Assembly: GCA_018830865.1 (NCBI GenBank)
Contig: JAHJRN010000012.1
Span: forward strand, 1 to 41,240
Source: Patescibacteria group bacterium
Lineage (GTDB): Bacteria > Patescibacteriota > Patescibacteriia > 2-12-FULL-60-25
Length of the DNA stretch: 41,240 bases
Direction: 5' to 3'
Shown: positions 14,099-14,982 of the stretch, piece by piece
Numbering within the stretch: the first letter of the stretch is position 1
Layout of the letters: every line of letters starts with the position of its first letter
Notes under the pieces: generated by a model
Database searches by the model: none
The model's input: the letters and a program-made list of their open reading frames with translations, nothing else
What the model was told of the DNA's origin: nothing
Program-made: the position numbers and the translations under genes

Positions 14099-14701
14099 TT
14101 ACGCGGTTCGGAGCTCAAGGACGGCATTTCGGGCGCCAGGCACAGCACCTTTCACGGCGAGGACTCCTCCGTCGCGGACTTCGATGACCTCGAGATTCTT
14201 GACTGTGACCGTATCCGCGCCCATGTGGCCGGGTTTCTTGGTCCCTTTAAGCACGTGCTGGAGACCGCCAGCTCCGGACGAGCCCGGCATGCGTTCCTGG
14301 TCCTTATGCCCATGTGACTTCGGCTGCCCATGAAAATGATGGCGCTTGACCACGCCCTGAAACCCCTTACCTTTGGATGTACCCGTCACGTCAACGACAT
14401 CGCCGACGATGAACGCCGCGGCCTCGATCGTGTCGCCCCGCTTCATGGATGCAATCTCGTCGATCCGGAACTCACGGAGAACGCGGAGCTTAGGCAAATC
14501 CTTCAAGTGACCTTCCTGGGGTTTCGTCAATTTCTTCGCCTCGAGGAACCCGATCTGGACCGACGTATAGCCATCGGTCGTCATATCCTTCACCTGCGTC
14601 ACGACGCACGGTCCTGCCTGCAACAGGGTCACGGGAACAACCGTCCCATCGGGACGGAAAATCTGCGACATCTCGATTTTCTTCGCAAGGATGAATTTCA
14701 T
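14099..14701 (-). CDS. rplC: Large-subunit ribosomal protein uL3
   Basis: L3 is an early 50S assembly protein near the peptidyl-transferase centre. The 200-aa protein starts [15 protein letters not shown] and has the signature [25 protein letters not shown] followed by [22 protein letters not shown]. The start at ATG 14701 is chosen because the family N-terminus begins there; the frame upstream runs into the leader. No Shine-Dalgarno sequence is visible; a 6-bp hairpin (14715-14731) ends 13 nt before the ATG. Confidence 0.97.
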
Positions 14702-14982
14702 AGGATGACTGGCGCTCCGGACAGGCCGGAGACAGTTGAGATGCACAAAGGCCCTCACATGGGCCGTGACCTGCCTGCCGAGTTAGCAGGATCTTTCGTG
14801 TCTCGGAACATGTGCGGGCCTCTGAGCGATCAAAGGCACTTGATTGTGAGCTGATGGCCCGTCTATCACATCTCTCGGCAGGGAGGTTATGCCATGGCCC
14901 CACATCGCTGGTGGGGATTATCCTGCCGTATCGGCGGGAAGCAACTTACTCCTTGGAAAAACGTTTTGACGGGGTGCGAGTC
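14702..14982 (-). ncRNA. Structured leader RNA between rpsJ and rplC (candidate ribosomal-protein regulatory element)
   Basis: This 281-nt gap is by far the longest in the ribosomal cluster and is packed with complementary segments. Seen directly: S1 14876-14882 with 14922-14928 (7 bp), enclosing hairpin 14898-14903/14911-14916 (6 bp); S2 14774-14782 with 14874-14882 (9 bp); S3 14750-14761 with 14809-14820 (12-nt arms, one mismatch), enclosing 14778-14782/14802-14806; S4 14815-14820 with 14856-14861 (6 bp), enclosing 14829-14833/14840-14844; and hairpin 14715-14720/14726-14731 just before rplC. S1 and S3 can coexist, S2 and S4 can coexist, but the two sets exclude each other. An AAGGAG (14949-14954) precedes a TTG mini-ORF of eight codons (14918-14944) that overlaps the S1 arm. 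It matches no leader family I know; regulation is inferred. Confidence 0.6.

Follow-up and report, generated by a model that had tools for sequence, protein, structure and literature searches.

A candidate ribosomal-protein leader between rpsJ and rplC in a class of Patescibacteria, with an upstream internal-loop domain and a putative attenuator linked by a predicted kissing loop

The rpsJ-rplC gap and its upstream domain

The window (by which is meant the whole stretch of DNA analysed, 41,240 nucleotides) is part of a 1.14-Mb draft genome; among named bacteria, Candidatus Uhrbacteria are its closest relatives. Its minus strand carries, in order, tuf, rpsJ, a gap of 281 nt, rplC, rplD, rplW, rplB, rpsS, rplV, rpsC and others; neighbouring r-protein genes overlap or lie tens of bases or less apart, as against the 281 nt that separate rpsJ from rplC. 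Since the genes lie on the minus strand, the leader RNA is the reverse complement of the strand read in the first-pass annotation, a change of strand that complementary arms survive. Folded in this sense, the RNA of the gap reaches -110.9 kcal/mol; dinucleotide shuffles average -89.6 (sd 5.3), which gives z = -4.0, and none of 200 folds as well. The gap measures 152 to 590 nt in every Uhrbacteria relative read (one is assigned a longer gap), and only 5-26 nt in four loci that resemble other phyla (L095, L106, L108 and L111).

The features of the locus and of the upstream part of the leader are these, A1 being an alignment of 27 sequences that shows P1, the internal loop, P2 and P4:

14983..15327, minus strand: rpsJ (S10), the gene upstream of the leader
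14702..14982, minus strand: the whole leader, that is the rpsJ-rplC gap, 281 nt; the gap is long in all family relatives
14949..14955, minus strand: 5' arm of P1, CAAGGAG, pairing with 14885-14879 CUCCCUG, with an A.C mismatch at the fifth pair
14943..14948, minus strand: strand Y of the internal loop, UAAGUU (NAAGUU), candidate protein-binding site; A-A-G-U-U invariant in 27/27
14941..14942, minus strand: 5' arm of P2, GC, pairing with 14892-14891
14921..14939, minus strand: P3 hairpin, variable in sequence and length; it folds in two-hairpin relatives
14898..14916, minus strand: P4 hairpin, CCCCAC-CAGCGAU-GUGGGG, compensatory changes at 6/6 pairs
14904..14910, minus strand: P4 apical loop, CAGCGAU, in which AGCGAU is predicted to kiss AUCGCU of the antiterminator loop
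14886..14890, minus strand: strand X of the internal loop, AUAAC, candidate protein-binding site; near-invariant in A1
14879..14885, minus strand: 3' arm of P1, CUCCCUG; CUCC invariant in A1
14099..14701, minus strand: rplC (L3), the first gene under putative control, followed by rplD, rplW, rplB, rpsS, rplV and others

Across P1, P2 and P4 taken together, A1 contains ten pairs at which both sides have changed, with 69 such cells as compared with 25 (sd 4) in shuffled alignments, and the signal is destroyed when the partners are slid by one base. Three of the P1 pairs covary in A1 and further P1 pairs in a second alignment, A3 (described below), while the second pair of P2 varies between C-G, U-A and U-G in A1 and P2 covaries strongly in A3. 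The string GGAG-NAAGUU, with AUAACCUCC further on, is visible in 39 of 40 distinct family gaps, and the apparent exception (L116) is still matched by the covariance model. The first-pass annotation had proposed an internal two-state leader at this position, controlling rplC and the later genes separately from tuf-rpsJ, and had named covariation and retention of the gap in relatives as its test; a leader is indeed conserved there, with strong compensatory change in P1, P2 and P4 and with long gaps throughout the family, and its placement suits such separate control. The arms originally listed miss the separate upstream domain made up of P1, the internal loop, P2, P3 and P4.

As regards other signals in the gap, the window has no good promoter there, the best candidate scoring 8/12. 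Two relatives do carry one of sigma-70 type, perfect in L053 (TTGACA-17-TATAAT) and near-perfect in L057 (TTGACA-17-TAGAAT), which suggests that rplC is transcribed separately in some relatives; in these two the leader may accordingly constitute a genuine 5' UTR. A further motif, ACCAA(T/G), often as GCGACCAATCCGA, stands within the final 60 nt upstream of rplC in 15 of the 40 gaps of the family (for instance L031, L041, L043, L044, L008 and L016) against 0.9 expected from shuffles, and is absent from the window.

Antiterminator, terminator-type hairpin and kissing loop

The downstream part of the leader contains two further hairpins:

14818..14837, minus strand: antiterminator hairpin, GCCUUU-GAUCGCUC-AGAGGC, in which pair types GC/CG/UA change on both sides
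14747..14823, minus strand: terminator-type hairpin, AGAGGCCCGCACAUG...CAUGUGAGGGCCUUU, with 5' base AGAGGC and a short U-run after it

In 26 of 26 relatives the 3' arm of the antiterminator is also the base of the 5' arm of the long, stable hairpin, so that the two are mutually exclusive. The antiterminator arms change together among relatives (GC, CG and UA at one pair), and those of the terminator are complementary when both come from one genome, less so when they come from two (0 of 3000 permutations). When transcripts are cut before the terminator 3' arm the antiterminator is predicted, with a median probability of 0.94 (1.00 in the window), and in complete transcripts the terminator is predicted, with a median of 0.99 (again 1.00 in the window); this overlap, together with the folds predicted for truncated and full transcripts, is the anatomy of a putative attenuator. 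The run of U after the stem is only 3-5 long in the window's family and partly paired, which makes unaided termination uncertain. Other families of the class have longer runs, including textbook T-runs, behind a hairpin in the corresponding position. Towards its top the terminator-type hairpin varies hugely in length and sequence among relatives and is still base-paired, reaching about -64 kcal/mol (for instance L005, L017 and L113).

The apical loop of P4 (CAGCGAU in the window) is complementary to the loop of the second hairpin (GAUCGCUC in the window) in 29 of 29 relatives, giving a kissing helix of 4-9 bp with a mean of 5.9, as compared with 4.9 when partners are dealt among species (0 of 5000 permutations as good), both results being limited by the loops having been taken by eye from printed folds. 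Loops that depart from GCGA are compensated, as in L005 (GGAUCGAUC/GAUCGAUCC) and L009 (AACGAAC/GUUCGUU). In several relatives a single hairpin replaces P3 and P4, implying that the coupling must differ there.

The arms on which the first-pass annotation had built its switch can be read directly from the sequence, all four pairs being present (coordinates on the forward strand):

S1: CCTGCCG 14922-14928 / CGGCAGG 14876-14882
S2: CCTGCCGAG 14774-14782 / CTCGGCAGG 14874-14882
S3: 14750-14761 / 14809-14820, corresponding to the conserved terminator-type hairpin
S4: 14815-14820 / 14856-14861

The switch was to lie between S1 with S3 and S2 with S4, by way of the shared CGGCAGG arm, and in the window the two states really are mutually exclusive at sequence level; S2, with 9 bp, is also better than any of 300 shuffles. 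However, among 25 relatives S2 is absent and S1 and S4 occur at chance level, whereas P1, P4, the kiss and the antiterminator are retained, as is S3. That S1, S2 and S4, which are peculiar to the window's genome, constitute the switch is thus very improbable indeed, and they have been set aside in this role. The competition conserved among the sequences compared is that between the antiterminator hairpin (14837-14818) and the terminator-type hairpin (S3), with the predicted kissing loop as its coupling to the upstream domain.

Distribution and strand order of the internal loop

Of 41 genomes of the family, 40 contain exactly one match to the covariance model R1, adjoining rplC wherever the locus was read; the remaining genome (G017, 82% complete) also lacks a match to rplC. 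Beyond the family, strands X and Y recur at rpsJ-rplC in many other families of the class, some of which have them in swapped order. Alignment A3 represents a single-hairpin form with the same internal loop, found in Buchananbacteria and others, and A2 a swapped-strand form, GAUAAC-UCU ... AGA-AAGURUC, found in Falkowbacteria and others; each has covariation of its own. A2 and A3 show the internal loop to be older than the window's family.

In a search of 286 genomes of the class, model R2 matched 20 and model R3 63, and the matches lay between rpsJ and rplC at 20 of 21 R2 places and in 39 of 40 of the R3-hit loci fetched. The two loop topologies occur in different families; where the swapped form is present R3 gives few matches, all weak, and the one checked, L187, lies away from rplC. 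Five weak matches came from outside the class, none near rplC and about as many as chance predicts.

Two side observations concern relatives other than the window. A second conserved string, GGAGGTAAATCAG, stands downstream of the permuted loop in L062, L073, L080, L082, L085, L088, L091 and others, where it could compete with the AUAACUC strand. In L079 and L081, which lie outside the Uhrbacteria family, the later part of the gap is flanked by inverted copies of strings resembling CCCGTTAGAAnTTT (CCCGTTAGAAGTCT in the former, CCCGTTAGAAATTT in the latter), and these possibly belong to a different switch.

Proposed mechanism, rival readings and known systems

The interpretation favoured here, which we hold to be rather probable, is that of an r-protein leader acting by transcription attenuation of rplC-rplD-rplW-rplB and beyond, with L4 as the likeliest candidate ligand. 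The nascent RNA would first fold its upstream domain, comprising P1, the NAAGUU/AUAAC internal loop, P2, P3 and P4; the small antiterminator hairpin would form next, and its loop would kiss that of P4. While the kiss held, the base of the terminator 5' arm would be occupied and polymerase would read into rplC-rplD-rplW-rplB and beyond. Binding of a free r-protein of the cluster (again, most likely L4) to the internal loop would cost the kiss, whereupon the terminator hairpin would regain its base and transcription would stop after rpsJ. What comparison among relatives establishes, at the level of sequence, is how the leader folds, that its two loops can kiss, that antiterminator and terminator overlap, and that there is one copy per genome in a fixed place; we infer a protein ligand, its identity, a kiss that is broken rather than made (as the logic of feedback suggests) and actual termination at the hairpin.

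That an r-protein encoded downstream probably turns down its own gene cluster through the leader is consistent with the features by which r-protein leaders are recognised, namely an RNA secondary structure that is conserved with the support of covariation and a position consistently upstream of r-protein genes, from which position we infer binding by an r-protein of the operon that lowers expression. Autogenous control would suit an element that occurs once per genome next to r-protein genes, and it best explains the combination of one site before rplC-rplD-rplW-rplB, a conserved loop and a putative attenuator. L4 is by analogy the likeliest ligand, given the rule that for a multi-gene operon an established ligand encoded within it is the best guess (PMC7247131), and given that the S10 operon of E. 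coli is under L4 control (PMC10931766).

Mimicry of rRNA did not help to name a ligand, as no candidate in 23S rRNA rose above chance: searched with models, neither Uhrbacteria 23S rRNA nor the S10 leader of E. coli yielded a significant match to the motif, and a pattern scan of the relatives' 23S genes gave many weak matches, none above chance with models. Those tempting by pattern and then rejected on this ground were an H18/H19-like region (L120), the hairpin GCCGUAACUUCGGGAUAAGGC (L121-L123), which we take to be H62, and a region of E. coli 23S that is presumably H35a.

Three other readings have to be weighed. The big hairpin could be a processing or stability element (e.g. an RNase site) separating the tuf-rpsJ mRNA from that of rplC, the upstream domain merely stabilising one mRNA end, and the very long, nearly perfect stem and the short U-run would suit this; it is nevertheless an unlikely reading, since the antiterminator overlap in 26 of 26 relatives and the kissing loop are hard to explain without a two-fold decision, and the textbook T-runs at the same place in other families of the class also tell against it. 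An aptamer-like domain joined to an antiterminator and a terminator is the architecture of a riboswitch too, so that the leader might sense some non-protein signal (a metabolite, an ion, or the state of the polymerase or ribosome) as a riboswitch or coupling device. Metabolite riboswitches, however, usually stand before several unrelated genes, whereas this element occurs exactly once per genome and before rplC only, in 40 of 41 genomes, and no Rfam riboswitch matches it, so this is quite unlikely. Translational control, in which the fold would mask or free the rplC start, has in its favour that classic r-protein control is often translational and that in a few relatives the hairpin ends 10-16 nt from the start codon; but with the hairpin ending 44 nt before the start in the window and 29-141 nt before it in most relatives, it is distinctly unlikely.

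Leaders of this general kind are known, and what would be new in the attenuator reading is where the leader lies, between rpsJ and rplC, its coupling through kissing loops and the permutation of its binding site. No leader for Patescibacteria is among the 20 of PMC7247131 (Table 1), and searches of the open-licence literature found none for this group either. We put forward only tentatively, as a possibility somewhat short of an even chance, that one class of Patescibacteria possesses an r-protein leader of a new class, with an internal-loop sensor in two circularly permuted forms and, in the window's family, signalling through a kissing loop. Should this be so, binding domain and terminator would in that family be joined by a loop-loop contact only, a coupling which yields a sharp, testable prediction. 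With identical letters on exchanged strands, the binding site would be a naturally occurring case of circular permutation in a protein-binding RNA, such permutation being documented in few natural RNAs (hammerhead and twister ribozymes, 5S rRNA and group II introns; PMC10085705). The leader would also be an experimentally accessible regulatory RNA for the central ribosomal operon of the Patescibacteria. To our knowledge gene control is nearly unexplored in this very large and almost uncultured group.

Among catalogued RNAs, Rfam 15 has no family or riboswitch class that matches the leader at gathering or relaxed thresholds, a result that says little, as it has no match to the E. coli S10 leader region either. 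An L4 candidate in Archaeoglobi, with a borderline covariation rating (PMC7247131, Table 1), likewise stands before rplC-rplD-rplW-rplB, though it is archaeal and is likened here by position alone. The E. coli S10 leader is also structured and controls the same L3-L4-L23-L2 gene block, L4 acting there by both transcription attenuation and translation control, with NusA and L4 assisting termination (PMC10931766); an imperfect U-run follows the hairpin in both, UUUUCGUUU in E. coli and UUUUGCGUUUU in several relatives here. The present leader differs in that it lies between rpsJ and rplC rather than upstream of rpsJ, shows no match to the E. coli leader in sequence or model searches, and keeps its candidate binding domain apart from the terminator while adding an antiterminator and a kissing loop. 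By eye the last E. coli hairpin, GGUUAC-A-CUC/GAG-GA-GUAAUC, resembles the permuted GGAUAAC-UCU/AGA-AA-GUAUC; models R2 and R3, run on the E. coli leader with filters off, found nothing above chance, so that homology is unsupported and the likeness serves as a lead only. In the rplJL attenuator of B. subtilis, L10(L12)4 stabilises an anti-antiterminator with a kink-turn (as summarised in PMC10931766), and no kink-turn is seen in the rpsJ-rplC leader. There too an r-protein steers the choice between antiterminator and intrinsic terminator, as is proposed here, where in contrast a kissing loop would hold the antiterminator to the upstream domain.
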